Of a DNA stretch of 64,000 nt, positions 1,371 through 52,965 are shown in pieces. The stretch is from Bretschneidera sinensis (taxonomy: Eukaryota; Streptophyta; Magnoliopsida; Brassicales; Akaniaceae). A program made the position numbers and the translations under genes. Numbering within the stretch: the first letter of the stretch is position 1; every line of letters begins with the position of its first letter. The notes under the pieces were generated by a model that made no database searches, was not told where the DNA came from, and saw nothing but the letters and a program-made list of their open reading frames with translations. The stretch spans positions 104,917,536 to 104,981,535 of the forward strand of contig CM043699.1 of assembly GCA_023935145.1 (NCBI GenBank). Direction: 5' to 3'.

Positions 1371-1576
1371 TTTATACCCATTATACCCCTGCAACAACAA
1401 ACCCTATTCATTGTCTTCTTCCCCCCTTCTCCTCCTCCATCTCTTCCCCTTTCTTCTTCTTCCAGATCTGCATGAGGATGTCATACCAGCGCGCACAACA
1501 GTAGCGCCACAACAGCACGACAACAACATCGTACCAATGCGACAACAACTCTTTCAGCACGGCAACAGCTCATCCG
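1371..1576. other. Internal segment of the TIR element, no gene
   Basis: A pyrimidine-rich stretch followed by CAACAACA-rich sequence up to the LTR of Copia A. A 75-codon frame here is low-complexity and resembles no family I recognise. Confidence 0.5.
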
Positions 1577-1882
1577 CGTAAGATAATTGATAGACAAGAG
1601 TATTATGAAAATATTTGTTTTTCTGCACAATCTTTTGTGTAGCATACATAGCAATTTATACTAATGTAATTACAACTGATTTCCTACTTTTACGTTGAAT
1701 AATCCAAACTCCTACAACTATACAATTTCAATCACTAAGGATCGTATCTCCTCATTGTTATCCTCCTGGTTTGCTCCTATGATCTCGGCACTTCATGTGG
1801 CTATATATTTTTCAATAACTCATGATCCTTATCTTCCTGATCTTCAGCCTTGACTTCAGCTATAATTACTTGATCCTCTACA
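1577..1882 (-). repeat. 3' LTR of Copia A
   Basis: 306-bp copy matching 6076-6381 with scattered substitutions (for example GATAGACAAGAG against GACAGACAAAAG near the outer end). On the minus strand it follows the polypurine tract and contains the last codons of the degenerate RNase H reading frame. Confidence 0.85.
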
Positions 1883-3590
1883 CACCCCCTCAATCTCGAG
1901 GGTAGATCACGAACATTCAGATTGTTTTGCACTTGTTTGAATTTTATTGGTGGTAATGGTTTGGTAAGAGCATCGGCCAACTGATCTCTATTGGAAATAC
2001 ATTGAACCACCAATTGTTTTCTAGAAACTTGATCTCTAACAAAGTGAGAATCTATTTCGATGTATTTTGTTCTTGCATGAAACACAGGATTGGAGGTGAG
2101 GTAAGTCACTCCAATATTGTCACACCATAGGATTGAAGCTTGTCTTAGAGGAAAACCAAGTTCAGATAAAACTATTTTGAGCCATGTAATTTCAGCTGCT
2201 GTATTTGCTAGCACCTTGTATTCAACCTTAATGCTGCTTCGAGCGACCGTAGGCTGCTGTTTGTAACTCCATGAGACCAAGTTGGATCCTATATATATGC
2301 AATAAGCACCAACTCATTGATTATCCCTATCAACTGCCCAATCCAAGTCGAAATATGCCTGCAATCTGAAATCCTTAGCTTTGGTGATTAGTAAACCTGT
2401 AGAAAGTGAATGTTTAAGATAATGCAATATTCGCTTAACTGTAAGCCAGTGTGAATCAAGAGGTCTATGCATGAATTTGTTGACTTTGTGTACATCAAAT
2501 GCTAAATCAGGCCTTGTAAATGCAAGATATTGTAGGCTGCTGACAATACTTCGATAGAGACTTACATCCTCACAAAGTTTTCCATCTGTAGAATTAAGGC
2601 GACAATTAGAGGCCATTGGACTGCTGCAAGGTTCGGCCTTATCAATGTTGCTCCGTTTAAGCAAGTCAACAATATACTTGCGCTGAGTTAGATAAAGGCC
2701 ATCAGAACATCGAAGTGCCTCTACACCAAGGAAAAAATTTAAAGAACTCAAGTCTTTGACAGCAAACGTGTCTTTTAACCAATTAATCACTCTGTTGATT
2801 GCAGCTGAACTTGAACCTGTTATCAAGATATCGTCAACATAAATGAGAATATAAACAACAATTGTTGTTGTTCTAGAAACAAAAAGTGATGTATCAACTC
2901 TACTTTCATAGAAATCTAAAAACTTGAGCTTGTCTGAAAGTTTAGAAAACCAAGCTCTTGGAGCCTGCTGCAAACCATAAAGCGATTTATGTAACTTACA
3001 GACATGATTTGGATATTGAGTATGAATATAGCCCTGTGGTTGAGACATGAATACTTCTTCTTGCAAATCACCATGCAAGAATGCATTTTGCACATCCAAT
3101 TGCTTTATAGGCCAATTATAAGAAGTTGCAATGGAAAGCACTAACCGAATAGTTGCATGTTTGATGACTAGACTAAAGGTCTCAGAGAAGTCGATTCCTT
3201 ATTGTTGGTGGAATCCTTTGGCGACTAGTCGAGCTTTGTAATGCTCAATAGTCCCATCTGCTTTCTTTTTAACTTTGTAGACCCATCGACATCTCACAAT
3301 GTTGGCTTCAGATGAAGGTGAAACCAAAGACCAAGTACCATTTGTAGCAAAGTAGAAAACTCTTTTTTCATTGCTTTTTGCCAGTGAGTAGATTTCGATG
3401 CCTCAGTATAAAACGTAAGTTCCATGGCTATATTACTACTTTCTGCTAACAATGCTCGAGGTAGTGGATACCGAATACAACCATCACTTGGTTGACGAGG
3501 TTTATAAATGTTATTCTTTGATCTTGTTGTTATAGAGTGACTGTTTGTTACACGGTTGGGAGAAGTAGGTATCAACTGTGAAGCATGCAA
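1883..3590 (-). pseudogene. Copia A reverse transcriptase and RNase H remnants
   Basis: The frame at 2314-3141 carries the Copia reverse transcriptase, with NAFLHGDL, SLYGLQQAPRAWF and the catalytic YVDDILITG. The frame at 1801-2280 carries the end of RNase H (CDNIGVTYLTSNPVFHARTK) and runs into the LTR. The frame at 3294-3590 holds the linker before the RT. Stops and frameshifts break the chain between 2281 and 2313 and between 3142 and 3293. Minus strand, downstream of the integrase remnants. Confidence 0.85.
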
Positions 3591-3950
3591 TGTGTTAACA
3601 GGTTGGGCTGGAATAATAGCAGACTAGAATTCTGCAGTAACATACCGTGTAGATGTGTCTTGATCTGTTCTTACAGGAAGAGATAAACAATGTGCAGATT
3701 GTGTGCTTATGGAAATATGGTTATTCTGCAAATCTATCATACTCATAGATTTTAAAACATTGATCTGAAGTGGAAGAGAAACAAAATATGATGACTGCTC
3801 AGTAGAGAAGCTGGGATTGGTTTCTTTGATGTAAGGAAAAAGTGTTTCATCAAATATTACATGTTTGGAAACATAAACCTTACCAGTAGAAAGATCGAGG
3901 CATTTGTACCCTTGATGACAAAGACCATAACCAATGAATATGCATGTTTT

Positions 3951-4974
3951 TTAGCGAAAATTGAGTTTATTTTTATTGTAAGGTCTCAGGTTAGGCCAGC
4001 ATGCACAATCGAAAACACGCATAAATGAATAGTCTGGCACACAGTTATAAAGAATTTCATAAGGTGATTTTTGCTTTAAAACTAGTGTGGGAAGCCTGTT
4101 TATAACATACACAACAGTTTGAAAGGCATCTTCATAGTAAAGCATTGATAAATTCGAGTGTGCCAACATGCTTAAACCTACTTCGACAATATGTCGATGT
4201 TTACGCTCAATTGAACCGTTTTGTTGATGAGTATAAGGGCAAGCTAGCCCGGTTAATTCTAGTGTTTGTAAAATAAATGTTCAAGTGCCGAAATTCACTG
4301 CCCCAATCAGACTAGATGACCTTTATTTTTCTTTCAACATATGCTTGAAACTTAAGAAAAAATTGTTCGACATTTGACTTGAGTTTAATAGGGAATAATC
4401 AAAGAAACTTGGAATAATTATCTAAAAAGCTTACATCGTATTTGACACCAATGGTAGAAACCATAGATGCATGTCTCCATACATCACTAAAAATTAAATC
4501 CAAAGGTTTGGAAAAAACAAATGCAGAAAATTTAAAAGGTAAGTCATGACTCTTAGCCATTTGGCATTCAGAGCATACAAGGTGCATCTTATTTTTCTCT
4601 ACTGGAAAAGCAATGCTGGAAATAAATTTGTTGATGACTGGAGCTGAGGCATGTCCAAGTCTACGATGCCACTCATGAAGAGAGACACGAACACTGGAAA
4701 AGGCTTGAGGGGGACTCGATTTGATGGAGAACCGATAAAGGCCATCACTGAGATGTCCTCGATGAAGGACCTTCCCCGATTAGTCCTTAACAAGAAAAAA
4801 ATGAGCATGAAACTCAAAATAAACACTATTGTCAACACAAAATTGATGCACAGATATTAAATTCTTTTTAATCTCAGGGATGAGAAGAACTTGGTTAAGA
4901 ACAAAGGTAGAAGTAGTAGTTGAAATTTTAGATGATCCTGTTTTAGAGATTTGCAAACCTTGACCATTTCCCAC
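3951..4974 (-). pseudogene. Copia A protease-integrase remnants
   Basis: Short minus-strand frames: 3951-4169 with an integrase C-terminal part (INRLPTLVLKQKSPYEILY), 4399-4587 with the zinc-finger end and core start (CSECQMAKSHDLPF, LDLIFSDVW), and 4780-4974 with the region between protease and integrase (VLLIPEIKKNLISVHQFC). Several frameshifts separate them. 3591-3950 holds further decayed integrase-RT linker. Confidence 0.8.
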
Positions 4975-5099
4975 TTGAACATTATCTAAACCATTGTAGT
5001 CATCATTCTGTAGGTTCAGATTAGCTGCATCATTAGTGAGATGATAGGTTGCACCTGTATCAGCGTGCCACTCAGCCTTTCAATTGCCATTATCCTTAG

Positions 5100-6037
5100 C
5101 TACCATAGCCTGCTCGGGTGCTGGTTTTGGAGAGTTCTGATAAGAAATATCAAATCTATGATAACACTTTTGAGTAGAATGTCTTGGTTTACTACAAACC
5201 TGGCAAATAAGAGGAGATTAATCATTGCTACGATTAGCAAAATTGAAGCCACCATGATTTCCATTCCCCTTTCCTCTAAGACCACCGCGTCCACTTCAGG
5301 AAAAAGACTAAGATTATCGTTGAGCAACATTTGAAGAGGCTTGTTGGACTGCACAGGCAAGTTGATGTCGATAAAGGCGAGCTTCAGTGGTCAGTAAAAG
5401 AGAATAAATTTCTTCGAGTGTCACAGTGTTAGTACGGGCAGAGATGGAGGCCACAAAGTTGTCATATTCATGGCCTAATCCTGCAAGCACATAAGTGATA
5501 ATATCATCACGAGTCATAGGTTTTCTTGCAATGGCTAACTCATCTGTAAGTCTCTTGATGAAGAAAAATTACTCGGTGGCAGATTGGCTGGCCTTAGTTG
5601 CAGTGGCCAATTGTGTGCGTATTTGGACAATTCGCGCACGAGACCTGGAAGAGAAAGTTTCATCTGCGCCAGACAGCGTTAGATGTTGTACAGTTGACTA
5701 CCTAAGCAAGCACCCCTTTAGTGAGTGAAAACATGAGTGTGCTAAGAATGAGATTGTCCTGACGCACCCACTGAGTGTAAGCAGGATTTTTTATTTCAGA
5801 AATAACCTCGGTTTCAGAGTTAGAGATAGAAATAGTTGTGGCTGGTTTTGTTATGGTACCATCAATGTACCCGAAGAGATCCTGACCTCTGAAATAAGGC
5901 ATCATCTGTGCTTTCCAAAGAAGATAATTGTCTTGAGTAAGTTTGACAGTAACAACATTAGACATGGAGATAATAGATGGAAGGTTGGGAACATCAGTTT
6001 CAGTACTGGTAGAGGAGGAAGGAGATGAGGAAGACAT
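5100..6037 (-). pseudogene. Copia A gag remnant
   Basis: The gag start lies at 6037, with a Ser/Thr-rich N-terminus and a Copia gag motif (VKLTQDNYLLWKAQMMPYF). The frame breaks at about 5702, resumes at 5517-5314 (DNFVASISARTNTVTLEEIY, UBN2-type gag) and contains near 5165-5210 a CCHC knuckle (CQVCSKPRHSTQKCY) in which the usual Gly-His is Arg-His. At least two breaks. Confidence 0.82.
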
Positions 6038-6060
6038 AGGTAGATGTTGGTCTTTTCACG

Positions 6061-6075
6061 GCTCGAATGATACCA
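6061..6075 (-). other. Primer binding site of Copia A
   Basis: Minus-strand TGGTATCATTCGAGC directly follows the 5' LTR. The first eight bases match the 3' end of plant initiator tRNA-Met; the rest has drifted. Confidence 0.65.
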
Positions 6076-6381
6076 CGTAAGATAATTGACAGACAAAAGT
6101 ATTATGAAAATATTTGTTTTTCTGCACAATCTTTTATATAGCATACATAGCAATTTATACTAATATAATTACAACTGATTTCCTACTTTTACGTTGAATA
6201 ATTCAAACTCCTATAGCTATACAATTTCAATCACTCAGGATCATATCTCCTCATTGTTATACTCCTGATTTGCTGCTATGATCTCGACACTTCATATGGC
6301 TGTATATTTTTCAATAACTCAGGATCCTTATCTTCCTGATCTTCAGCCTTGACTTCAGCTACAATTACTTGATCCTCTACA
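6076..6381 (-). repeat. 5' LTR of Copia A
   Basis: 306-bp copy of 1577-1882. It ends, on the plus strand, at CTCTACA before CTCTGGCAG, where sequence of the host TIR element resumes. Confidence 0.85.
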
Positions 6382-6563
6382 CTCTGGCAGCACCGATCTA
6401 CAGGAAGAAAATGAAACATCGATCTACAAGAAAATAAGGAAGATGGAAGAGGAAGAAGGAAAAAAAAAACAAAAAACTCTCTTTATGTCATAACAGATGA
6501 GGAAGAAGGAGAAAAGCAAAGAAAAAAGGTATGGTCTTGGTTTTATATATACATATATATATA
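6382..6563. other. Host TIR-element segment between the two Copia insertions
   Basis: Purine-rich sequence (GGAAGAAGGAAA-like) ending in a TATATACATATATAT tract. The last five bases, ATATA at 6559-6563, are one copy of the Sirevirus target duplication. Confidence 0.6.
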
Positions 6564-7135
6564 TGTAGCTCGAGGTTTCAACCCAAGAGGGGGTGAATTG
6601 AGTTTTTAAAAACTTTTGCGGAATTTATACAAGTTTATAAAAACTGATAAGCAACAAATAATTAATACAAGTAAAAAGCTGTAAATAAAGAGTTTAAGGA
6701 AAGAGGATGCAAACACAGTTATAGTGGTTCGGCAATATCGGATTCGTTCTGACCCTACGTCCACTCTCTTCAAGGAACTCCTTGAAGTAATCCACTAAGA
6801 AAACTTAGTCGCACAACTTAGCCGGGTGTTGCACAAACCGTACACAAGCAATTTACAGGAATTGCTTAAACCGAAAAATCCCCTTCCTTTCGGAAGTTTC
6901 CCCTTCCTCTCGGAAGTAATCCCTTTACAAAGATGGTGTAAAGTAACAGGTAGAGAGACAACAAATGAAAGCTTATTACAACAGAAATGTCTCTCTTTCA
7001 AAGTAAAGCTTGAAGAAATGGCTCAATAAGATTATCTCAAAGCTTTTTGTGTTTCAAGAGTATAAAAACTTGATTATATGAGATCAACTCTTTTTGAATA
7101 TTTGCTTCTTGTTTTTGAATGCTTTTCTAAATGGG

Positions 7136-7144
7136 TTTATATAG
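7136..7144 (-). promoter_or_regulatory. TATA box of the 3' LTR promoter
   Basis: Minus-strand CTATATAAA followed by CCC. It lies 95 bp downstream, in the sense of transcription, of the nearest palindrome. The same box is at 16239-16247 in the 5' LTR. Confidence 0.6.
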
Positions 7145-7238
7145 CAATCAATTAATATGGCCATTTTGGACTTTAATTTGAAAAAGATTTACTTTAAAAC
7201 GTTCAGATTTGAAGTCCAACGGTCATATTTTTGAACTA

Positions 7239-7481
7239 CCAGTCGACTGGGTCGAGATACCAATCGACTGGGTTCACTTGAAAAATACACGTTTTCAGAC
7301 CTTCTGGGTATCCAGTCGACTGGTATATATCATCCAGTCGACTGGGGACTTTCTGTCCATTTTACCAGTCGACTGGGTTGATTCATCCAGTCGACTGGGA
7401 TATTACTGGTCAATGTACCAGTCGACTGGATACCTTCTGACCCATATACCAGTCGACTGGTATATGTACCCAGTCGACTGG
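7239..7481. repeat. Palindrome array CCAGTCGACTGG in the 3' LTR
   Basis: Nine 12-bp sites start at 7239, 7260, 7312, 7334, 7365, 7387, 7418, 7449 and 7470. Eight are the perfect palindrome and the one at 7260 is CCAATCGACTGG. Spacings are 21, 52, 22, 31, 22, 31, 31 and 21 bp, that is, pairs 21-22 bp apart on a 53-bp period, with one partner missing after 7418. In other frames the array is translated as repeated PVDW, QSTG or SRLG, which are not proteins. Confidence 0.95.
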
Positions 7482-7790
7482 GTTGTCTTCCAACCCAGTT
7501 TTTCTTCTGTTTTTTTTATTAAAAACATTTAAAAATAATGGTTTTAGAAAAACCTTTTGTGATTGAGCCATTTAACAAGTTGATACAATGTATGAGTGAG
7601 ACTTACATTGGTTCTAAACCTTAAGACCTATACTAGATCTTCAGTCTTCACTTGATACTTGATTTGGTTCGAGTTTTTGCACTTTGTTCCTTGGTTGAAT
7701 GTGTTTGATCCTTAATACAACTTAGTTTAAACATGTTAGTTAAATAACAGTTGTGTTTTGCCATCATTAAAATACGGGCGAGGGTCAACA

Positions 7791-7805
7791 ATTTCCCCAT
7801 TTTTG
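7791..7805 (-). other. Polypurine tract of Sirevirus B
   Basis: Minus-strand CAAAAATGGGGAAAT immediately precedes the TG of the 3' LTR. This is the expected site for plus-strand priming. Confidence 0.8.
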
Positions 7806-8464
7806 ATGATGACAAAACTAATAAAGTAAAAACAGTTTTAAAAACTAAGTGTTAAGATTTTACAAAAATTTGGACAGAGTCTCCTCTGTTTTTCGAGTAA
7901 AACTACCCTGTAAACAAGCAAACACAGTTTATATTTCTTTCAACCAATCCAGAATTAAACTCAACCAATCAATAAACGTTTTTACAAAGATATGGAGCAA
8001 TGCTCCCCCTAAATCTATGCATTGGTTGCGTTTTACTTAGATTTTCTTGTTTTTCTCATTTTTCTCCCCCGTTTTGACAACAGCAACCAAAGGGGGCATA
8101 ACATAAAAATAAGCTACTTAGCCAATATTGTCAAATAGGTTATAAGAATACAAAGATGTACGCGAAGATTTGGCTTCTTTTGAATTTCAGAAGCCTTCCC
8201 GAGAAGAACCGGAAGTTTTTTTTAAGCATATATAAGCAGTTTATATCAGATTTAGTGACTAAACAGATATTAAAAACAATTCTAACATATCACAAATAGC
8301 GTAAATAAATGCAAGAAATATGGCTAATAGTATTACATCATCATAGAGAAAAAGTCAATACAAGTAGGGCCTCATAGAGCCATAGCTAAGAAAAACAAAT
8401 ATGAGATGTCCGTACTATGTGACAAAAACTGGAAAAGTGCTAAGAGTTGATAAAAGAAAGAGAC
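7806..8464. other. Noncoding tail between ORF3 and the 3' LTR
   Basis: About 660 bp of AT-rich sequence downstream of the ORF3 stop. It contains pyrimidine stretches (CTCCCCC) but no palindromes of the array type and no convincing frame. Confidence 0.6.
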
Positions 8465-9727
8465 TCATGGTGCGGGAGAGTCCGAGTTGTCACGAAGAAG
8501 TTCCCTAATATCCGCTAGGGAACCCTCGGTGTGCTCTCGATGTAACTCGAAGTCATCCCGTAAGTGGTCTATGGAGGAGCTCAGCCTCTGATAATCGGAC
8601 TGCATGGACTGAAAACCGGACTCCATCGTCATCTGAAGACTCGTGATAGCTCGTAGGATGTCACCATATCCAGTCTGACCAGTACTCGAGCCACCAATGG
8701 GAGGTACTCGGGTATCTGTCTCCATCTCAGCAGCCGTATCAGCATCCTCATCACTGTCACTCGCATCCTCTCGAATCCTTAGGCGCTTTCCGGCCTTTGG
8801 ATAGAGAAACCCTTCACGAACAGTACATCCCATCTTCTTCAGAGATGAGATGTTGATGATATCCGTCAATCCGATATCCTGAGCCTCAGAGGCAGGCAAA
8901 GGTACTCGGAAGTGCTGGAGGATGAGCGTAATGAGCATCCCATAAGGAAGACACCCGGAGTCGTTTGCTTCGCCGTTTATCATGTTGGCGAGCAGTAGAG
9001 GATATATATTGAAGTGGTGCCCAGATTTTAGGCACCAAATCAATACCGTATCTATTTTAGATAGATACCCTCGACTCCCGAGTCTCAGGTGGATGGTCCA
9101 ACTGACAATCAATTGAAACATCTTTGAGTCGAGGGGCAAGTCACTACATGTGTGAAATGTAGTGGGTCTGTACATATAGTTAGGGTCGCCCCTGACAATC
9201 CAACAGGCCTTCTCAACTTCAAAGTTGTCTGGCCATCCATCCAGACTCTATTGAACCCCCCTTATAGGGATTCTCAGAATGCTCATTAAGAGGTCAGTGT
9301 TGACCTCAAACTCCACACCACTAACTCTGGTTCTGAATCTCAGAGCCAGAGGACTGGGTTTTACCAAGTTCGCATAGAACTGGTGAATCAGTCGCGAGTA
9401 ATATTTTTCATGAATTCTGACCAGTGGGGTCAGATTTATTGCCTCAAAGGCTGGTAGAATATCGAAATTACCATGACGAATGGAGTCGAAATCAACGACT
9501 CTACCCATTATGATTTTCTTATGACGGATTATAGAGTTATACCTCTTATGAGCCGCTGGGCTGAAAAACAGAGCCTGCTCCAACTCTGTTCTGGGCTCCT
9601 TGCTGGATGACCCTGCTACTCCCTTCCCTTTCGACTCCGAAGCCGAAGGTTTTGAAGACCTTGGCTTTTTGGGCGCATTAGGTCCACTTGTTGTGAGTTT
9701 TATACGGATTTTGTCACTCATTTTCAA
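8465..9727 (-). CDS. Sirevirus ORF3 (plant transposon-protein domain plus coiled coil), split by one TAG
   Basis: One minus-strand frame from ATG 9727 to the stop at 8465, about 419 codons, broken only by an in-frame TAG at 9248-9250 (codon 160). The N-terminus is basic (KIRIKLTTSGPNAPKKPR). It is followed by a region like the 'putative plant transposon protein' domain found beside plant retroelements (YYSRLIHQFYANL, then a short strand-like segment before the stop). After the stop the same frame continues the domain, then an acidic stretch (DASDSDEDADTAAEMETD) and a C-terminal coiled coil with regular hydrophobic spacing (about residues 350-410). I see no signal peptide or membrane segment, so this is not an obvious envelope glycoprotein. 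It occupies the position of the Sirevirus env-like ORF and has its own upstream TATA box and palindrome array. Function unknown. Confidence 0.75.
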
Positions 9728-9930
9728 GAAATTTGAAGTTTTTGGAAAAAGAAAATTTGGTAAAAATGAGAGATTTTAACCGTAGAAAGTTAAAAATCTT
9801 TTTAGGAATGAATATATCGGTGTGTTTAGAAGGGATTTGGATGGTTTTCAGATCAAAAAGATGAATTTTTCTAGAGAGAGAAAGCTTGGGCTCTTTGAAA
9901 AAGGCGTAAAAATAGCGAAAATGAACAGTC

Positions 9931-9940
9931 CCTTTTATAG
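9931..9940 (-). promoter_or_regulatory. Internal TATA box upstream of ORF3
   Basis: Minus-strand CTATAAAAGG, a strong TATA match, lies 11 bp downstream of the nearest palindrome (9951-9962) and about 205 bp upstream of the ORF3 ATG. It mirrors the LTR arrangement, array then TATA, and suggests a separate ORF3 transcript starting near 9900. Confidence 0.6.
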
Positions 9941-9950
9941 AATCGCGATA

Positions 9951-10289
9951 CCAGTCGACTGGCGTCGATATACCAGTCGACTGGGTCCCTTTGAAAAGAT
10001 GAACAGTTTCTTTACCAGTCGACTGGGTAAACGTACCAGTCGACTGGGTAAACTGGCAGTGAGTTACCAGTCGACTGGGCTATCTTTACCAGTCGACTGG
10101 AGGACACGGATTTTTCAAAAAAAATTGGCTCCAAGTAGGATTTGATCTTATAGACGACTGGAGAAGACTTAACAGTCGTCTGGAAGTTTTGACAAAGAGT
10201 TACCAGTCGACTGGGTCAAAATTATCAGTCGACTGGAAGATCAGGCAGAGACTTACCAGTCGACTGGAGAACATTTACCAGTCGACTGG
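9951..10289. repeat. Internal palindrome array CCAGTCGACTGG upstream of ORF3
   Basis: Perfect sites start at 9951, 9973, 10014, 10036, 10067, 10089, 10203, 10256 and 10278. Degenerate sites start at 10150 (ATAGACGACTGG), 10172 (ACAGTCGTCTGG) and 10225 (TCAGTCGACTGG). All twelve fall into six pairs with an exact 22-bp pitch, and successive pairs start 63, 53, 83, 53 and 53 bp apart. It lies in the noncoding interval between the pol end and the ORF3 TATA box. Confidence 0.95.
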
Positions 10290-10429
10290 ATCTTGAGTAA
10301 AATTTCCAGTCCTGAATTTTTAGCACGATTTTGTTTATCTATGACATTTTTGAGTGAAGGGAATAATTAAACATGGATTAATACTCTATCACTCAATGTC
10401 AAACATGCAAATGATGAAATGAGATGCAA

Positions 10430-13400
10430 TCAAAAATTCAATTTATCAAAATCAAGCAATCCCATCAACTTTCTAATCTTGCAAAAACTAGCTTCACTTA
10501 AGGGTTTTGTAAGAATATCAGCTATTTGATCTTCTGAATGTATAAATTCTAATCATATATCACCTTTTTGAGCTTGGTCTCTTAAGAAATGATGTCTAAT
10601 CTCTATATGCTTGGTTCTAGAGTGCTGAATAGGATTTTTGGTTAGGCTGATGGCACTAGTATTATCACAAAATATAGGAATATTTTTGAGACTCATGCCA
10701 TAGTCTTCTAGTTGTTGTTTCATCCATAGTACTTGGGCACAACAACTGCCAGCTGCTACATATTCCGCCTCAGCGGTTGATAGCGCAACTGAATTTTGTT
10801 TCTTGGAGAACCAAGAAGTTAACATAGCACCTAAGAATTGGCATATTCCACTTGTGCTTTTTCTATCTAACCTACATCCAGCAAAATCAGCATCCGAATA
10901 TCCTACTAGCTCAAAAGATGATTCTCTAGAATACAATAATCCTATGGTCTGGGTCCCTTGTAGATATCTAAGGATTCTTTTTACTGCAACTACATGTGAT
11001 TCCTTAGGATTAGATTGAAATCTAGCGCACATGCATACACTGAACATTATATCAGGTCTACTTGCAGTCAAGTACAGTAAAGCACCTATCATGCTTCTAT
11101 AATATTTAGAATCTATAGTTTTACCTCCTTCATCAAGATCAAGTTTGGTGGTTGTGCTCATAGGCGTTCCAATTGGCTTTGAGCTTTCCATCCCGAACCT
11201 CTTTAGTAGATCTTTAATGTACTTTTGTTGATTGATGAAGATACCTCCTTTTAGTTGCTTGATTTGCAGTCCAAGGAAGTAGGTAAGTTCTCCCATCATG
11301 CTAATTTCAAATTCACCTTGCATGCACTTTGCAAACTCTTGACACATAGATTCATTAGTAGCACCAAATATAATATCATCAACATATATTTGAACTATCA
11401 AAGTGTCATTTTTGTGAGTTTTTGTGAAGAGAGTTGTATCTATTCTACCTCTTACAAAATCATTATTAACCAAAAATTTGCTTAGTCTTTCGTACCATGC
11501 CCTTGGAGCTTGCTTCAACCCATATAAAGCCTTAGAAAGCTTGTAGACATGATTTGGAAGACTAGGGTTTTCAAAACCAAGAGGTTGTTCAACATAAACC
11601 TCTTCTTCTATAAAGCCATTTAAAAAGGCACTTTTCACATCCATTTGAAATAGTTTAAATTTATTAAAGCATGCAAAGGCTAATAACATTCGAATAGCCT
11701 CTAATCTAGCTACGGGAGCATAGGTTTCATCAAAATCTATTCCTTCCTCTTGGTTATATCCCTTAGCAACTAGTCTAGCCTTATTTCTAGTTACTATACC
11801 ATTTTCATCCATTTTATTTCTATATACCCATTTAGTTCCAATAATTGAATGATCTTTAGGTCTTGGAACTAGTTCCCAAACATTGTTTCTCTCAAATTGA
11901 TTTATCTCTTCCTGCATTGCAATTATCCAATCATTATCTTTTTCAGCTTCTATAAATGACTTAGGTTCTACTTGAGACAAGTAAGCTACAAAATTGCAAA
12001 TATTTCTAATGGAAGAGCGAGTTCTTACCCTTTGTGAAGGATCACCAATTACTTGAGCAATTGGATGATGATTTACATACCTCCAATCCTTGGGTAGATT
12101 TTCCTCTTGTTGACTTGAGGATGGTTGGTCCAAATTAGGAGTTGTCATCCCTTCATTTGTTTGAGTAGAACTCTCTTTTAGGTCAACAATGGGAGTAGGA
12201 GTTTCCATTCTTGGAATAAAATCTGCATCATCTTTAAAGGAAACTTCTTCTATACTCATTGGGTTAGATTCATCAATAGTTACATGCACAGATTCTTCTA
12301 CTACTAGAGTTCTCTTATTGAAAACTCTATAAGCCTTACTAGTAGTAGAATATCCTAAAAATATCCCTTCGTCGGTCTTGGAATCAAATTTACCCAAGTT
12401 AGTTTTATTGTTATTTAAGATGAAGCACTTACTACCAAAGGCACGAAAATAGGAAATATTGGGCTTTCTCCCTTTCCATAGTTCATAAGGTGTTTTATCA
12501 AGCAGGGGCCTTATCAAAATTCTATTTAAAATATAGCAAGAAGTATTCAAGGCTTCAGCCCAAAAATATTTTGTAAATTATTTTCACAAAGCATTGTTCT
12601 TGAAAATTCTTCTAGAACTCTATTTTTCCTCTCAACAACTCCATTTTGTTGAGGAGTTCTAGGAGCTGAAAAGTTGTGATTAATTCCATTTTCATCACAA
12701 AATTTTGAAAAGCTTTGATTTTCAAATTCTTTGCCATGATCACTTCTTATGCTTGAAATACAAATTCCTTTTTCATTTTGTACCTTTTTGCAAAACTTTT
12801 CAAATCCTTTGAAAGCTTCATCCTTATAAGCAATAAAAATAACAAAGGTATATCTTGAATAGTCATCAACAATAACAAGAGCATATTGATGGCCACCTAG
12901 ACTAATGGTACTAATTGGACCAAATAAGTCAATATGCAAAAGTTCCAAAGGTCTAGTAGTTGAGACAACATTTTTTGCTTTGAAAGATATCCTAGATTGT
13001 TTTCCCATTTGACAAGCATTACAAATTTTGTTTTTCTCAAAATTGATTTTAGGAAGACCAATAACTAAATCTTTTCTTGAAACAATTTTTAGCAAGTTCA
13101 TGTTTACATGACCAAGCCTTCTATGCCATAGCCATTGATTTTCACTAAAAGCAGGAAAACATTTTTCATTATTGGAATGTAAGGATTTCAAATCAACTAT
13201 ATAGACATTTTCATGTCTATGGCCAATGAATTTGATCTTGTTGCTCTTGATGTCTATAACTAGACAATGAGAGGTCTCAAAGGTGACTTTATATCCTTTG
13301 TCACATAATTGACTAATGCTAAGTAAATTTGGCTTTAGGCCTTGTACTAGCAATACATTATCTAAAGTTGAGAAATCATTACCGACTTTTCCATGCCCGA

Positions 13401-13551
13401 TGATCTTTTTTTTAGTATTGTCTCCAATGGTCACAAGTCCACCATCTCTTAGAGTTAGCTCCTTGAATACGCTTTTATCACCGGTCATATGCTTCGAGCA
13501 ACCGCTATCAAGGTACCAACAGTTACCTTTCTCCTTGGTGTGAAGGCAAAT
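10430..13551 (-). CDS. Sirevirus pol (protease, integrase, RT, RNase H) with point lesions
   Basis: Directly after the gag TAG (13552-13554) the same frame continues with the aspartic protease ([14 protein letters not shown]). Then come the integrase HHCC finger ([17 protein letters not shown]), the DDE core ([30 protein letters not shown]), the reverse transcriptase ([25 protein letters not shown]) and RNase H ([32 protein letters not shown]). A one-base loss in an A run near 12560 shifts frame inside integrase. A TGA at 10553-10555 cuts off the last 40 codons, which are otherwise open to 10430. All catalytic residues I can see are kept. Gag and pol share one frame, so the intact ancestor made a single polyprotein. 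Confidence 0.93.
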
Positions 13552-15612
13552 CTACATCACACAAGGATATACGATAGCATTTTTAGGTACCCAAAATTTC
13601 TTGGGTCCTTTGGGGTTAGTCCTTGAAAATACGGTTCCTTTTGGGACCCATACTTTCTTAACAATATATGGTGCTCTATGAACATGTTGATGATGCACAA
13701 TCCTAGCATTATAGTCATAGAAATTTCTAGGAAATTTTAAATGTGCATTCCTATAATCCTTAGGATGATAGTTCCAAGGATACATGATTCTATGGTAAGG
13801 GGTATGAAAATGCATGTCATTTCCAGAAAATGAACGATGATGCATTCTATGATACATGCTAGCATATGTATGCAAGTTATTTCTAGAATAGCCATGATGG
13901 TGATTCCTAGGATGAGCATGAGCAGAATGCATTCTTTGATTATACACATTGTTCCTATAAAGAGCATGATGATTATTTCTAGGGTGTGTATGAGCATTTC
14001 TAGAATGAGCATACAAATAAGCATGAGTATTTTTAGGATGCTTCAATTTAGTATGATCATTTAAGTTTCTAGACTTCCTCGGATTTATCAAGGGAGTGCT
14101 TTTAATAAGGTTAGGAGCTTTTGAAGTAGAAGCTCCATCTACACAAGAGGCTTTCATGAATAAGCTCTCTTTTGTTTTTTGTTTTCCCAATGGAGAATAT
14201 CCTACACCAGATTTTCCTCCACTTAATCTTTGGGAAGAAAGCACTTCATCAAGTTTTTCTTTACCAAGCATAAGTCTAGATACAGTGTTGTTTAATTCAG
14301 AAATTTTATTTTTCAAATTCTCATTTTCATCTTTAAGAAAATCTTGAGACGAATTATACAGTAAAGATGATAATTTTTCTTTTTCTTCTCTAAGAACTAT
14401 CATTTCTTTAGAAAGAGATGATACTTCTTTCTTAAGAACAGAATTTCTAGAATCAAATTTCTTTAATTCTTCATGCATTTCATTTATGACTTCTAGAAGT
14501 TCTTCACTACTAGTAACAATATTATTTTTTGAAGAGGGAGAAGAAGTTACCTCACTTTCATCATCGATTGCCATCAAACAAAGGTTGGCAATTTCTTCGT
14601 ATCCGATTTCTTTGTCTGATGACTCATCTTCTTCGTCATCGCTCCAGGTAGTTGCTACCATAGCTTTCTTCTTGAAGCCCTTGTATGGTTTGCTTGAAAC
14701 CGGACAGTCAGCTTTTATATGTCCTGGCTTCTTGCAGCCATAGCACATAAGTGGTTCCCTTTTTGAGGTGGGATCCTTTGAGTAAGGTTTCTTGCTTTTC
14801 TTCAAGAACCTATGGAATCGTCTGGTGATTAAAGCCATTTCACCATCCTCTTCACTGCTCTCTGCTTCTTGTTCTAATTCCTTTTCTTTGTTGCTCGTAG
14901 AAGCTTTGAGAGCAATTTGCTTTTTCTTCTTCTCATCATCATTGACGATGGGAGTCATTTCTTCCATCTCGTATGTCAATAATGACCCAAGCAGCGTCTC
15001 AACATCAAGCTTGTCAAGATTTTTGGCCTCTTGAATGGCTGTCCTCTTTGGTTTCCATTCTGGTGGCAGAGATCTCAAGATTTTTCTGGTTAGTTCAACT
15101 TCCTCAATATTCTTGCCAAGCAATTTTAAACCATTTATAATAGTAGTAAATCGTGAGTGCATTTCAGAAATGGTTTCGTTAGGAAACATCTTAAAAGATT
15201 CATATTCAGAAATTAGCATGTAAATTTTAGACTTTTTTACTTCACTTGTTCCTTCATATGTGACTTGCAATTTGTCCCATATTTCTTTAGCAGAAACGCA
15301 TGCAGATATTTTGTTATATTCAGAAATATCTAATGCACAATGTAGCATGCTTGTTGCTCTGCTATTGAGAGACATCGTTCTACAATCCTCATCAGTAAAC
15401 TCAGTTTTGAGTTTAGGCATTGTATGAAGAGTCTCTCCAATAACTATTTCTTTTGAGGGAATTTTAGGTCCCTCTTCTATAATTCTCCATAGATTGTAAT
15501 CTTGTCCTTCGACGAAGATTTTCATTCTATTTTTCCAATAGTTATAATTTGAGCCATTGAACAATGGTGGTCTAGTATAAGAGTGTCCTTCAGAGTAGCT
15601 ATTTGCTGCCAT
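13552..15612 (-). CDS. Sirevirus gag, 686 aa
   Basis: Capsid/nucleocapsid protein. An N-terminal DUF4219-like segment (residues ~14-45, FNGSNYNYWKNRM) is followed by the UBN2/Copia gag domain (~95-220). A CCHC knuckle CYGCKKPGHIKADC lies at 290-303, preceded by a Lys/Glu-rich linker. There is a leucine-heptad coiled coil at ~370-460. Residues ~520-646 are very rich in His, Asn, Tyr and Arg (about 28 His in 127), and then two VPK motifs (VWVPKGT, FWVPKNAI) follow. The ATG at 15612 lies about 40 bp after the primer site. The frame ends in TAG and resumes as protease. The size agrees with Sirevirus gags, which are longer than those of other Copia lineages. The His-rich segment is unusual. Confidence 0.9.
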   Translation of the reverse strand: MAANSYSEGHSYTRPPLFNGSNYNYWKNRMKIFVEGQDYNLWRIIEEGPKIPSKEIVIGETLHTMPKLKTEFTDEDCRTMSLNSRATSMLHCALDISEYNKISACVSAKEIWDKLQVTYEGTSEVKKSKIYMLISEYESFKMFPNETISEMHSRFTTIINGLKLLGKNIEEVELTRKILRSLPPEWKPKRTAIQEAKNLDKLDVETLLGSLLTYEMEEMTPIVNDDEKKKKQIALKASTSNKEKELEQEAESSEEDGEMALITRRFHRFLKKSKKPYSKDPTSKREPLMCYGCKKPGHIKADCPVSSKPYKGFKKKAMVATTWSDDEEDESSDKEIGYEEIANLCLMAIDDESEVTSSPSSKNNIVTSSEELLEVINEMHEELKKFDSRNSVLKKEVSSLSKEMIVLREEKEKLSSLLYNSSQDFLKDENENLKNKISELNNTVSRLMLGKEKLDEVLSSQRLSGGKSGVGYSPLGKQKTKESLFMKASCVDGASTSKAPNLIKSTPLINPRKSRNLNDHTKLKHPKNTHAYLYAHSRNAHTHPRNNHHALYRNNVYNQRMHSAHAHPRNHHHGYSRNNLHTYASMYHRMHHRSFSGNDMHFHTPYHRIMYPWNYHPKDYRNAHLKFPRNFYDYNARIVHHQHVHRAPYIVKKVWVPKGTVFSRTNPKGPKKFWVPKNAIVYPCVM

Positions 15613-15653
15613 TGGATCAACTCTAGGAATTTAAGCCTTTTAAAGAGAACCTT

Positions 15654-15665
15654 GCTCTGATACCA
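15654..15665 (-). other. Primer binding site of Sirevirus B
   Basis: Minus-strand TGGTATCAGAGC, a perfect complement to the 3' end of initiator tRNA-Met, two bases after the 5' LTR. Confidence 0.93.
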
Positions 15666-16238
15666 ATTGTAGCTCGAGGTTTCAACCCAAAGGGGGTGAA
15701 TTGGGTTTTTAAAAACTTTTGCGGAATTTATACAAGTTTATAAAAACTGATAAGCAACAAATAATTAATACAAGTAAAAAGCTGTAAGTAAAGAGTTTAA
15801 GGAAAGAGGATGCAAACACAGTTATAGTGGTTCGGCAATATCGGATTCGTTCCGACCCTACGTCCACTCTCTTCAAGGAGCTCCTTGAAGTAATCCACTA
15901 AGAAAACTTAGTCGCACAACTTAGCCGGGTGTTGCACAAACCGTACACAAGCAATTTACAGGAATTGCTTAAACCGAAAAATCCCCTTCCTTTCGGAAGT
16001 TTCCCCTTCCTCTCGGAAGTAATCCCTTTACAAAGATGGTGTAAAGTAACAGGTAGAGAGACAACAAATGAAAGCTTATTACAACAGAAATGTCTCTCTT
16101 TCAAAGTAAAGCTTGAAGAAATGGCTCAATAAGATTATCTCAAAGCTTTTTGTGTTTCAAGAGTATAAAAACTTGATTATATGAGATCAACTCTTTTTGA
16201 ATATTTGCTTCTTGTTTTTGAATGCTTTTCTGAATGGG

Positions 16239-16247
16239 TTTATATAG
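16239..16247 (-). promoter_or_regulatory. TATA box of the 5' LTR promoter
   Basis: Minus-strand CTATATAAA, 95 bp downstream of the nearest palindrome (16342). It probably sets the genomic RNA start about 25-35 bp further on. Confidence 0.65.
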
Positions 16248-16341
16248 CAATCAATTAATATGGCCGTTTTGGACTTTAATTTGAAAAAGATTTACTTTAA
16301 AACGTTCAGATTTGAAGTCCAACGGTCATATTTTTGAACTA

Positions 16342-16606
16342 CCAGTCGACTGGGTCGAGATACCAGTCGACTGGGTTCACTTGAAAAATACACGTTTTCA
16401 GACCTTCTGGGTATCCAGTCGACTGGTATATATCATCCAGTCGACTGGGGACTTTTTGTCCATTTTACCAGTCGACTGGGTTGATTCATCCAGTCGATTG
16501 GGATATTACTGGTCAATGTACCAGTCGACTGGGTTAATTCATCCAGTCGACTGGATACCTTCTGACCCATATACCAGTCGACTGGTATATGTACCCAGTC
16601 GACTGG
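16342..16606. repeat. Palindrome array CCAGTCGACTGG in the 5' LTR
   Basis: Ten sites start at 16342, 16363, 16415, 16437, 16468, 16490, 16521, 16543, 16574 and 16595. All are perfect except 16490 (CCAGTCGATTGG). They form five complete pairs with pitch 21, 22, 22, 22 and 21 bp. The pairs start 73, 53, 53 and 53 bp apart. Confidence 0.95.
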
Positions 16607-16917
16607 GTTGTCTTCCAACCCAGTTTTTCTTCTGTTTTTTTTTTATTAAAAACATTTAAAAATAATGGTTTTAGAAAAACCTTTTGTGATTGAGCCATTT
16701 AACAAGCTGATACAATGTATGAGTGAGACTTACATTGGTTCTAAACCTTAAGACCTATACTAGATATTCAGTCTTCACTTGATACTTGATTTGGTTCGAG
16801 TTTTTGCACTTTGTTCCTTGGTTGAATGTGTTTGATCCTTAATACAACTTAGTTTAAACATGTTAGTTAAATAACAGTTGTGTTTTGCCATCATTAAAAT
16901 ACGGGCGAGGGTCAACA

Positions 16918-17090
16918 ATATATATAAAAGATTTATAATAAAAAAAGATAACGGAATTTTAATCTTTATATTTGTTATCTCACTTTAATTTCAATCCTAA
17001 AATGTTATGTACCAAACATAGAACTAAAATAGTCTTACTTTAATCCTAATCCTACCCCACTGTAATCCTGTCCGTGAACCAAACAGACCC
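16918..17090. repeat. Right inverted repeat of the TIR element
   Basis: The reverse complement aligns with 205-~415. It begins with the ATATA target copy of the Sirevirus and ends ACCAAACAGACCC before TAA (17091-17093). Confidence 0.7.
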
Positions 17091-25575: not shown

Positions 25576-27570
25576 TGTAATACTCATATTTGTAAAATAA
25601 GGGTAAAGAAGTAATTTAATAAATATGGCATGAAATTTAAAATAAAATCTATGTGAAAGATTTTTTAGTATTTGAATAAAGCAATTAAAAAAATAAAACA
25701 AATTAATTAATTAAAAAAAATCTGGGATGTGAATGTCCCAGAAGGCTGAAAGAGTTTGGAGAAGACAAGAGTAAAAAAAAAAAAAGTGAACAGTAAAACA
25801 TGGCAACAGGTGGCAGCCACCTGCTGCCAACTTGATGAGAGATTGCCAAGTGATACTACGAGCCTTGGTTGTGTGACAACAAGGCATATATGTGGTGAGT
25901 TTTTAGAAGTTGCCAAATGCATTTTGGCAAGTAATTGTGAGCTACCGTTGCAGCAAATCGTCTATATATATTACGCTTATATGTAAACGTTAAGTTACAC
26001 TTGCCCAACTCGTTTAGTTTCTTTCATTACGCGTCTTTTTTAAACACTTGGGGACCGAAAGAAAAGTTGAAATAGCAAAATTTTGAAGAGGTTTACGGTA
26101 GAAATTTTTACGAGAAGTTATCGGAAAAATAGAAGGTAATAATGTAATGTTTATTTTTTGAATTTTTAGCGTTCATGAAATTTCTCGGAATTCAAAGTGG
26201 GAATTTTCAAAGGGTATGGTTTATGAGGAATTTAAGAAATAATTAGAAATATAATGCTAATATTATGTCAGGTGTTGACGAACAGCAACCGGAGGAAATT
26301 CCTGAGAGGAACGGGAAAGGCAAGGAAGTGATCCACGGGTAGCTTTAAGTGTTACGTGGTGAGTTGGATTTACTTTAAGTAATCTAAATAAAAAACAAAT
26401 ATCTAATAATAATATTAAAATAAATTATTAGCTTTTGCTTGGTGGTAGATAAAAATTAAATTGATATATAGGATATGAATATTGGACACGTAGAAAATTA
26501 GTATGTGAAAGGAAATATTTTTAGAATAATGAGTTGATTTAATAATGATAGTGATAAAGAGATTTTGACTAGTTGGTGAATAAATTGATGTAATATATGA
26601 GGAGAAGAAAATTTTGAAATTTATTAAGCAGAAAGTTAAGGATAGACCGGATAGTTAATTTAAATATTTTGAATTCATGTGGTGTTTATATTACTGTTCA
26701 TATGCATATTTCATATCATTGTTCATGTGCATATGCATTTAATAATATAACCGAAAGAACCGGGAAAGGGCTGGTCTAATGAAACAATCATGACAGCCGG
26801 TATATGTTGGAAATAAAAGGGACACCGTGACAGCCGGTATATGCTGAAAATAAATTATGTGACAGTCAGGATAAGCTGTAAAGAACCGGGAAGGGGCTGG
26901 TTTAAGATAATAATAATCTGTCGACAGGTGGGAAGACGTTCCCATCATAAGCATTCACGCATTGCATCTGTTTGAATTATTGCTTGCATTATTGAAATGT
27001 TGATGTGTGGTATATTATGGTGAAATTATTTATAGATGGATGAGTCTCCTAGGGAGAGACATTTACAGTGAGAAAAAGAGAAAAAATACGAAGAAATATG
27101 ATAATATGGTGATTATTTAAATGTTAGACATTATACTATTATCCAGTTATAGGAGAAATAAATGATTAAATATTAAATGACTATTTATGAAATTGGAACA
27201 CTTTTAGTAAATTTAATTCACCGAGCTTGTGAAGCTCATCCCCTATTGTACAATGATTTTAGGTAACAAACATGACAAATAGTCTGGTGGGTTAAGGATC
27301 AGACGGATTTATTCTTTGTAAGCCACGTATGTGTCAATATCCTCAGGCTAGTGAGAAAATGAAATAAATATTTTATTTGTAAATATTCATGCATCTTATG
27401 TTGTATATTATGTGTAAATTAATATTATATTTACGTATCTCCCTTGTTGAGGGTTGAGGATTAAAATAAAAATTTTCTGTTAGTATTTGTTACATATATG
27501 TGTCGTGCTGGGATTCTCAAAACGTGATGACACCATCTCAGGGGTGGCCAACCCAAGATGAATCGTTACA
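25576..27570 (+). mobile_element. Solo LTR of a Tekay/Del-type Gypsy family
   Basis: 1995 bp starting TGTAATACTCATATT and ending TCGTTACA. It matches the LTRs of element D along its length (AGAAGTAATTTAATAAATATG, CTTTAAG..CTACG, TCACTTGC-like and GTGATGACACCATCTC blocks). It is flanked by ATGCG (25571-25575) and ATGCA (27571-27575), a 5-bp duplication with one CpG-type change. With no internal region, it is the product of LTR-LTR recombination. It contains the GACAGCCGGTATATG repeats typical of the family (about 26790-26890). Confidence 0.82.
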
Positions 27571-28150
27571 ATGCACCTCTTCTTTTCTCAGGGATATGTC
27601 AATTTTTATTAATTGACATTATTGTGATGTTTGTTGCGATGCTATTTTTGACCGCATTGTTGTGTTCTTGTGATGCATTTTTCAATTTAGAATAATGAAA
27701 ATGGTGAAGTCGGGTTTGTGAAGAAATTAAAAATTCTTGAGGGTGATAAGCAATGATAAAGTATTTTGGTATTTATACTTGCTATCAGAATTTAATCCCA
27801 ATAATCATAAATTCAACAATCCCATTAACCAAACATTGGATTAAGATATTGTTTTTTTAATCTTATTTGATCATATCCTATGATAATCCTAGTCATATAA
27901 ATTGATAATTTTGTCCACGAATCAAACGAGCCCACAAGTTCATACTATTTTTTAATTGAAATGATGTCACATATATATATATATATATATGTAGTACAAT
28001 GATTGATTTGATTATAATATAAATTCATACTATTTCATTACTTATATAGAAACTCACATTAATATCACAAGTCACAATACACTTAAAATAAAAAAAATAA
28101 TTAATATATAAATCGAATAAATAACCTACACATAATAAGAAATCATATAT

Positions 28151-50563: not shown

Positions 50564-51884
50564 TGTAATACCCGTATTCGTGAAGTGAAGGTAAAAAAGT
50601 AATTTAATAAATATGACATGAAATTTAAATAATATATTTGCGCGAAGGATTTAGTATTGAATAAAATAATTCTTTTGATTAAAAAAAAATTTTGGGACGT
50701 GGATGCCATTAAAAGAAAAGAAAAAAAAAGAGGACGTCTAGAACATCCAGAAGGAAAGGGAAAAAAAGTTTTAAAAAAAAAATCAACCAAAGTAAAAAAA
50801 AAAAGGTGGAAGTAGGTGGCAAAACCTGCTGCCAAGCCAAAGTGAAAGAAATTGTAGGTTTGACACATTTTTTGTGTCATGGCAGTGAGTTAAGAGAGGG
50901 GGGGGGGGGGGGTCTGTGTGTTGAGTTTGAAATGTTTTTTGGAGGTTGCACGTTGCAAATTCTTGGAGACTTTTGGGAGGGGGCCGCTGAGGCCAAAGCA
51001 ATTTTTTTTTTGTACATATACTCCTAGTTTCTTTCAATCTCTCGTTTTTCTTTAAACACTTGAGGACCCAAAGAAATACTGAAAGAGCAAAATTTTGAAG
51101 AGATTTACAGCAGAATTTCATAGAGAATCAGGAAAAGCGATCAGAAAAACAGAAGATAATAACATAATGTTTATTTTTGAATTTCTGACATTTATGAAGT
51201 TTCCCTGAATTCAAAGTGGGAATTTTCAAAGTGTGTAGTTTACAAAGAATTGAAGAATAAATTATAAATTTAATATAAATACGATGTCAGGTGTTGACGA
51301 TCTACAACCAGAGAAATTTCTGAGAGAAACAGGAAATGCAAGGAGGTGATCCACGGGTAGCTTTAAGAGCTACGCAGTGAGTTGGATTTACTTTAAGTAG
51401 TCTAAATAAAAATGAAAAAATTAGTGATAATATTAAAATAAATTATTAACTTATGTTGTGGTGATAGATAAAGATTTGGTTGATAATTATGATATGAATT
51501 TCGGACATATAGGAAATTTTTATGAGATAAATAATATTTTTGGAATAATAAGTTGATTTAACAATCAAAGCGATAAGTGAAATTCTTGATGAGTTATATT
51601 GATGTTTTAATACGAATTTTGATGAGATGAGTTTTAGTGGATCTTGACAAACTTTGATGGAGGATTTGATATGATTTGGGATGAAATTTAGTGGATCTTG
51701 ACAAGTTTATATGATTTGGGGACGAGAGGAATTTAATAGAATTTTTGTTATATAAATTTGAGAATAATCAGGATAGTCAATTTAAGTGTTTTGAATTTAT
51801 ATATTGTTTTTATATTACTGTTTATATGTATATTTCATATCATTGCTCATATGTATACGCATTAAATGAGAAAGAAAAGATTCG

Positions 51885-52110
51885 GGAAGGCAACTGGTCT
51901 AATGAAAATGAAAGAATCGAGAAGGCAGCCGGTCTAATTGAAAAACCGTGCCAGTCGGTATATGTTGAAAATAAATTCTGTGGCAGCCGAAAAAAGCTGA
52001 AAGAACCAGGAAGGCAGCTGGTCTTATGAGAATGAAAGAATCGGGATGGCAGTCGGTCTAAATGAGAATGAAAAAATCGGGAAGGCAGTCTGTCTAAGAT
52101 AATAACAACC
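51885..52110. repeat. Short tandem repeats of the GGCAGCCGGTCTAATGA type
   Basis: About six loosely conserved copies of GGGAAGGCAGCCGGTCTAATGAGAATGAAAGAAT-like sequence. The same words occur at 26755-26905 in the solo LTR and, reversed, at 62580-62775 in LTR E, so they are a family feature. Confidence 0.75.
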
Positions 52111-52180
52111 GGTCGATAGGTGAGAAGACATTCTCATCATAATCATTCATGCACTGCATATGTTTTTAATTATTGCTTAC

Positions 52181-52410
52181 ATTATTGAAATGCTGATGTG
52201 TGGTGTATTAATCGTGAATTTAATTATAGATGGTTGAGTCTCACAGAAAGAGACAGTTATGGTGATAAGATTATTGAAATGCTGAGGTGTGGTGTATTAT
52301 TGTGAATTTAATTATAGATGGTTGAGTCTCACAGAAAGGGACAGTTATAGTGATAAGATTATTGAAATACTGATCTGTGGTGTGTTATTGTTATGGTAAT
52401 AAGAACTATC
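52181..52410. repeat. 88-89-bp tandem repeat in the 5' LTR of D
   Basis: Units begin ATTATTGAAAT at 52181, 52270 and 52358. Two are full, with GATGGTTGAGTCTCACAGAAAG inside, and the third is partial. The solo LTR has only one such unit (27030-27060). Confidence 0.85.
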
Positions 52411-52965
52411 TAAATGGTAGACTTTATGATGTGAACCTCATTCGCGAGGTAATTATAAAATAACGGATGGTCTTGAAGTGAACCAATAAATAAGAAGAAG
52501 AGATTGATAGAGAATGAATCTTTTGACATGTGTAGTGATAGTAGAATGATAGTATCAGGCTATGAGAGATATAAATGATTAAATATTGAAAGACCATTTA
52601 TACAAGTGAATACTTTTAGTAAATTTAATTCACTGAGCTTGTGAAGCTCACTCCTCATTGTACAATGATTTCAGGTAGCAGGCAGGACAAAATAGTTTGG
52701 TGAGTTGAGGTTTAGAAGAAATCACTTTCTATAAGCCACTTACATGTCAACATCCTCAGACTAATGAGAAAATAAAATGAAAAATATATTTGTAAATATT
52801 CATGCATTTTACGTTGTATAGAATGTTTAAAGATCGGATTGATGTAAAAAATTTCTTTTGGATGTTGTTTATTTTTATTGTTGCATACATGTGTCATGCT
52901 GGAATTTTCAAAATGTGATGACACCGTCTCGAGGGTGGCCAACCCGGGATAGGTCATTACAATTT

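Follow-up and report, generated by a model that had tools for sequence, protein, structure and literature searches.

A retrotransposon on the minus strand of the Bretschneidera sinensis DNA analysed here (a stretch of 64 kb, referred to below as the window) spans 10.4 kb at 6564-16919, bears the hallmarks of a Sirevirus, and carries CCAGTCGACTGG palindromes: 10 and 9 sites in its two LTRs, and a further 12 in the linker that separates pol from the downstream gene ORF3. We propose, with a probability of roughly 0.55, that 9722-10289 is an internal RNA polymerase II promoter for ORF3 that makes use of the enhancer module of the LTR. In such a promoter, as in the LTR, a factor acting as a dimer would occupy the palindromes from one side of the double helix. 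Transcription would begin near 9907, as directed by the TATA box downstream of the palindromes, and would yield a short RNA with an ATG-free leader that serves as the messenger of ORF3, whose expression would be co-regulated with that of the LTR-driven RNA. Speaking for this reading are the array, its helical phasing, a strict TATA box, the homology of the TATA-proximal pair of sites to the LTR and the stops in all three frames of the linker; speaking against it are a TATA gap of 10 bp as opposed to 94 bp, a leader unlike that of the LTR, an in-frame stop in ORF3 and the examination of one copy of the element. Stop suppression and an internal promoter have been proposed as routes by which Sireviruses express the gene that follows pol, and splicing for env-like genes of other plant elements; this copy offers a concrete TATA box, a predicted start and an enhancer module. 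If the promoter is real, the genomic RNA and ORF3 would both be controlled through a single family-specific palindrome.

Table 1. Features of the element, in window coordinates
Feature	Position	Strand	Remarks
5' LTR	15668..16919	-	11 substitutions relative to the 3' LTR over 1228 aligned bases
5' LTR palindrome array	16342..16606	-	10 sites, 9 perfect; spacings 21, 52, 22, 31, 22, 31, 22, 31, 21
5' LTR TATA box CTATATAAAC	16238..16247	-	94 bp past the last site (16342)
gag-pol region	10430..15630	-	open stretches 13552-15630, 12547-13551, 10553-12577; in-frame stop 10430-10432 before the end of pol
Internal (linker) palindrome array	9951..10289	-	12 sites, 9 perfect; spacings 22, 42, 21, 31, 22, 61, 22, 31, 22, 31, 22
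TATA-proximal pair with upstream flank, homologous to 5' LTR pair 16342-16387	9951..9997	-	flank identical at 18 of 22 bases
Candidate TATA box CTATAAAAGG of the internal promoter	9931..9940	-	sole exact CTATAAAAGG match in the window
Candidate core promoter and 5' leader of ORF3	9722..9930	-	ATG-free, pyrimidine-rich; predicted start near 9907
Possible splice acceptor	9871..9884	-	pyrimidine run ending TAG, between TATA box and ATG
ORF3	8465..9721	-	ATG at 9721; in-frame stop 9248-9250 splits this copy
Sirevirus polypurine octamer AGGGGGAG, extra copy following ORF3	8003..8010	-	single exact upstream octamer
3' LTR	6564..7792	-	97.1% identity to 15668-16919 (BLAST alignment); minus strand begins TGTTGACC, ends CTACA
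3' LTR palindrome array	7239..7481	-	9 sites, 8 perfect
3' LTR TATA box	7135..7144	-	last site 7239, TATA 7144, 94-bp gap

The element and its assignment

The element starts with TG and ends with CA, and several of its parts match the Sirevirus type of plant Ty1/copia elements, namely the LTR junction, the region of the polypurine tract (PPT), an inverted repeat and the gag/pol domains. Sireviruses are recognised by a 5' LTR/PBS junction that reads CA/ATTGG followed by TATCAGAGC (PMC2829016), and the minus strand here reads CTACA ATTGG TATCAGAGC. Their PPT is described as a terminal octamer AGGGGGAG followed by AT/TG, with more octamers in the linker and variants in two of 21 elements (PMC2829016); the terminal purine tract before the 3' LTR of our element is ATGGGGAAAT/TG, in which AT/TG is present and the octamer is a variant of AGGGGGAG. 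An inverted repeat, identified by eye and unscored, surrounds the junction of the PPT and the 3' LTR, with GTTTTGTCATCATCAAAAA before the PPT facing the reverse complement of TTTTAATGATGGCAAAAC within the LTR. Retrotran_gag_2, rve and RVT_2 domains, as expected of copia-type gag and pol, are all present. Among at least 120 pol matches listed, every entry that names an organism is a plant, and no relatives of the third pol stretch (10553-12577) were found in viral contigs. Judged by the few substitutions between its LTRs (Table 1), the insertion is young. Ten of these 11 substitutions are transitions, which would fit methylated DNA.

The palindrome arrays

The array is far beyond chance: with up to two mismatches allowed, the window contains 33 copies of CCAGTCGACTGG, while 100 shuffles averaged 0.45 and never exceeded 2. 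Of the 33 sites, 30 fall within the three arrays, the other three (9346, 37528 and 62558) being isolated and carrying two mismatches each. The original prediction of twelve linker sites, nine of them perfect, arranged as six pairs, was borne out when up to three mismatches to CCAGTCGACTGG were allowed, the imperfect sites being those at 10225 (one mismatch), 10172 (two) and 10150 (three). The exact 22-bp pitch claimed for every pair was found in five of the six, in one of them by way of the three-mismatch site, but pair 10015/10036 is spaced at 21 bp; likewise, the steps from pair to pair, which had been put at mostly 53 bp, are 64, 52, 83, 53 and 53 bp, so that three of five lie at 52-53 bp. 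The 3' LTR array is one site short of its 5' counterpart, and in either LTR a CHG position of one site carries a single change of the C-to-T type.

In copy number and placement, with 10 and 9 sites in the LTRs and 12 in the linker, the palindromes agree with the RM boxes of Sireviruses, for which at least eight copies per element are required, lying in the LTR before the TATA box and upstream of the extra gene if there is one (PMC2829016). The CGG-CCG core that also belongs to this definition is absent from CCAGTCGACTGG; it is missing in one of 13 published palindromes as well, that of Tnd-1 (PMC2829016). Two copies of CCAGTCGACTGG 9 or 10 bases apart also occur in three contigs of a single Myxococcales MAG, with no sign of a link to the plant element. 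These were the only three matches of the paired palindrome in genome contigs, and we take them as unrelated; viral contigs gave 0 matches. Four papers of the open-licence literature searched contain the palindrome, and none has a title on a plant retrotransposon.

The candidate TATA box and leader of ORF3

A TATA box had been predicted just past the last linker site and about 205 bp before the ATG of ORF3. Indeed, 10 bp separate CTATAAAAGG from that site, and the ATG follows 209 nt after the TATA box. The order of array and then TATA box is, as had also been claimed, common to LTR and linker, although the gap is 94 bp in the former and 10 bp in the latter. The pattern CTATAWAWR has three matches on the minus strand of the element, which are the two LTR TATA boxes and 9931-9940. 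At the window rate, a 60-bp stretch would contain it with a probability of about 0.008, and the looser TATAWAWR with one of about 0.11; the pattern was composed after the sites had been seen, and these figures serve as a guide. We also observed that ACTGTTCAT (10007 and 9929) and AAAGGGAC (9992 and 9935) each have exactly two copies on the minus strand of the element, flanking the TATA-proximal pair of palindromes (9929-10007) as if a short stretch around the TATA box had been duplicated.

The usual distance from TATA box to start places the predicted start near 9907. A start there would omit the array, which as RNA folds very strongly (z -11.5; the palindromes pair by construction), from the ORF3 messenger, and the leader from this point folds in an ordinary manner (z -0.9). 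That the leader is ATG-free is unremarkable, as 1076 of 5000 shuffles of 9722-9908 were ATG-free too. Readthrough from pol into ORF3, as reported for SIRE1, was rejected because stops occur in all three frames of the linker (8, 10 and 14).

ORF3 might instead be expressed from a spliced, LTR-driven RNA, with a candidate acceptor at 9871-9884 and the array serving some other purpose, a route that we consider unlikely. The pyrimidine run ending in TAG is suitably placed between TATA box and ATG, splicing has been reported for the env-like gene of barley Bagy2, the 5' LTR is named in a review as the promoter from which env-like genes are transcribed (PMC7264820), and acceptors have been predicted for BAGY2 and Athila (PMC2829016). 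Splicing, however, leaves both the array and the TATA box directly upstream of ORF3 unexplained.

Helical phasing of the sites

Site positions in the linker gave a resultant of 0.94 at 10.5 bp, and those in the 5' LTR one of 0.94 at the same period (0.97 at 10.55 bp). The phase is kept although the gaps are unequal: the linker includes gaps of 42 and of 61 bp, and the LTR includes one of 52 bp. Since much of the signal consists of repeated 22- and 31-bp steps, we used a strict null that moves each distinct spacing class once, under which the joint phasing value was reached in 154 of 20,000 draws; a null of uniform spacing (0 of 5000) was set aside, as it ignores tandem duplication. Phasing on one face across differing gaps favours a protein on double-stranded DNA, more than RNA structure, as the ligand of the sites.

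This bears on a further alternative, in which the array would work for the element as a whole, either as a platform (for chromatin or against silencing) or as a sequence that silencing targets through hairpin RNA, with the TATA box being incidental. The strong folding of the array RNA would suit such a role, as would the report that palindrome clusters of maize Sireviruses attract small RNAs (PMC10760457, citing Bousios et al. 2016). So would the CpG observed/expected ratio of the array, which at 0.98 exceeds those of pol (0.23) and of the window (0.54), and the one CG and two CHG sites of each palindrome. Moreover, VANDAL transposons escape silencing by way of VANC proteins that bind tandem arrays of motifs (PMC5735166), and the phasing is no argument against an anti-silencing protein bound to DNA. 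It does, on the other hand, speak against silencing through RNA structure, and neither the TATA box nor the position of the array upstream of ORF3 is explained by a silencing role, which we hold to be quite unlikely.

Probable common origin with the LTR and apparent conservation of the sites

The flank and inner spacer of the linker pair 9973/9951 are identical to those of the LTR pair 16363/16342 at 18 of 22 positions, whereas the other 29 combinations of pairs reach at most 12 of 22. None of 5000 shuffles agreed as well, nor did any of 2000 after correction for the choice of window, which was applied because the window had been picked after the alignment was seen. Plain local alignment of the masked arrays gave a weaker result, with 16 of 1000 shuffles scoring at least as high as the real arrays. 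No homology beyond chance to the LTR promoter was found for the TATA box and leader, as 467 of 1000 Markov resamples aligned equally well, and we therefore reject a copying of the whole LTR promoter. The agreement of the proximal pairs thus supports a source shared with the LTR for the enhancer module, or at least for its proximal end, while the TATA box and leader, being at chance level, appear to be of separate origin. Of the suggestion that the element had copied, or converged on, its LTR enhancer, a common origin of the two is supported for the proximal pair and its flank, but not for the other pairs or for the TATA box and leader.

Within both arrays, the sites resemble one another more than the spacers do. 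The 12 linker sites are 92% alike on average, compared with 49% for the five spacers of 10 bp and 61% for the three of 19 bp, where composition alone would give 28%. In the 5' LTR the sites are 98% alike, whereas the figure is 67% for its three 10-bp spacers, 53% for its three 19-bp spacers and 11% for the two 9-bp ones. These figures take all spacers of equal length, so that those of 30, 40 and 49 bp and the single 9-bp spacer of the linker, which have no partner of equal length, fall outside them. The difference in identity suggests that sites have been kept while spacers drift.

Such retention speaks against the linker array being a functionless relic of an exchange with the LTR that grew by repeat slippage. 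Its 53-bp tandem structure, the stops in pol and ORF3 of this copy and the dissimilarity of TATA box and leader to the LTR promoter are all consistent with a relic. The insertion is young, however, with its LTRs diverging at 11 of 1228 positions, and published Sireviruses of monocots as well as eudicots repeatedly carry boxes upstream of ENV, each element having a palindrome of its own (PMC2829016). We regard a relic as quite unlikely too, and place it just below the silencing role.

Relation to known systems

The original prediction knew of no internal promoter of this kind, but the idea predates it, since boxes upstream of ENV have been discussed together with an internal promoter (PMC2829016), and a promoter of its own has been described for gene23 (PMC7264820). 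Bousios et al. (2010) found boxes in 13 of 21 Sireviruses, with linker boxes in nine of the nine among these that have ENV, and 77 of 79 linker boxes lie upstream of ENV (PMC2829016). In their proposal the boxes serve the expression of ENV, for which they prefer an internal promoter, as hypothesised by Peterson-Burch and Voytas (2002), while stating that no promoter had been conclusively identified; six further Sireviruses with ENV have CpG islands in place of boxes (PMC2829016). In MASiVEdb, both stop suppression and an internal promoter are given as mechanisms for ENV (PMC3414828). A mapped internal promoter or start site of a Sirevirus was not reported in the titles and abstract openings of the open-licence literature searched.

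As in the Sireviruses of Bousios et al., a high-copy, CpG-rich palindrome common to LTR and linker is clustered upstream of the extra gene in our element, and the LTR boxes come shortly before the TATA box. In contrast to most of the former, CCAGTCGACTGG resembles the palindrome of Tnd-1 in having no CGG-CCG core, and here a strict TATA box directly follows the linker array; helical phasing and proximal-pair homology are not mentioned in the available part of that paper (PMC2829016). What this element newly shows is a strict TATA box in the right place, a phase close to 10.5 bp that both arrays follow, and homology between the TATA-proximal pairs in LTR and linker.

Grande is a Ty3/gypsy element, and VANDAL elements are DNA transposons. 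Gene23 of Grande (Gomez-Orte et al. 2013) resembles ORF3 in being an accessory gene of a plant LTR retrotransposon and in its location, with pol on one side and the 3' LTR on the other; it is reportedly transcribed from an internal promoter of its own (PMC7264820). It differs in being antisense, and a palindrome array shared with the LTR is not mentioned for it in the available text (PMC7264820; the title also appears among the references of PMC11963269). Foamy viruses likewise have a second, internal promoter within a retroelement, and their Tas protein binds both the LTR and this promoter; they are animal retroviruses, though, in which the regulator is virus-coded and demonstrated, whereas the factor here is putative (PMC4929722). 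VANDAL elements share with ours the family-specific short motifs that form tandem repeats in non-coding parts of the transposon, but these are bound by the element-coded VANC protein, and the binding factor of our palindromes is again putative (PMC5735166).

The product of ORF3

By analogy with foamy viruses, ORF3 could conceivably encode a nuclear regulator that binds, as a dimer, to its own palindrome in the LTR and in its private promoter, thereby forming a feed-forward circuit, although we think this improbable. In such a circuit ORF3 would activate both itself and the genomic RNA, and would perhaps also counter silencing; the circuit would account for a palindrome that varies from one Sirevirus to another and yet is identical between LTR and linker within an element. 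An argument to the contrary is that four of the 13 published Sireviruses with boxes have no extra gene and still keep LTR arrays (PMC2829016). Domain and solved-structure searches recognised no DNA-binding domain in ORF3, which also speaks against a regulator.

Both pieces of ORF3 matched PF20167 (Transposase_32) weakly and below the curated cut-off, with E values of 0.0004-0.0005 and 0.00009. The second piece matched the predicted Citrus protein P0108, in which a related pol and a PF20167 domain are combined, at E 7e-9 in a single comparison, and the match of the first piece to the same protein (E 0.059) is unconvincing. Neither piece had homologues at E 0.001 in a database that includes plant retrotransposons, where a length rule may hide full-length relatives of the shorter piece. 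By hydropathy alone, with the pieces taken apart, no transmembrane segment was found in either, the highest 19-residue values being 0.87 and 1.19. With no such segment, the sequence of this copy does not support calling the gene an envelope, and we therefore use ORF3 as a neutral name. As to a coiled coil, another trait expected of envelope-like genes, a poor single-sequence model of the second piece (mean pLDDT 46) shows one long helix at residues 191-255, with pLDDT above 70 only at about 211-250. The best hits of the two pieces among solved structures were TYE7 (E 0.67) and ribosomal protein S17 (E 0.95), neither of them significant.

Other repeats are present in the window. A pair of direct repeats (310 bp, 94% alike) at 1574-6382 flanks a partial RVT_2 reading frame and is probably a smaller copia element. 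Related repeats occur in several copies and both orientations at 26015-27572, 51025-52963, 58487-58889 and 61790-63692, and the pair 52556-52961 and 58487-58889, 5.9 kb apart, is 94% alike.
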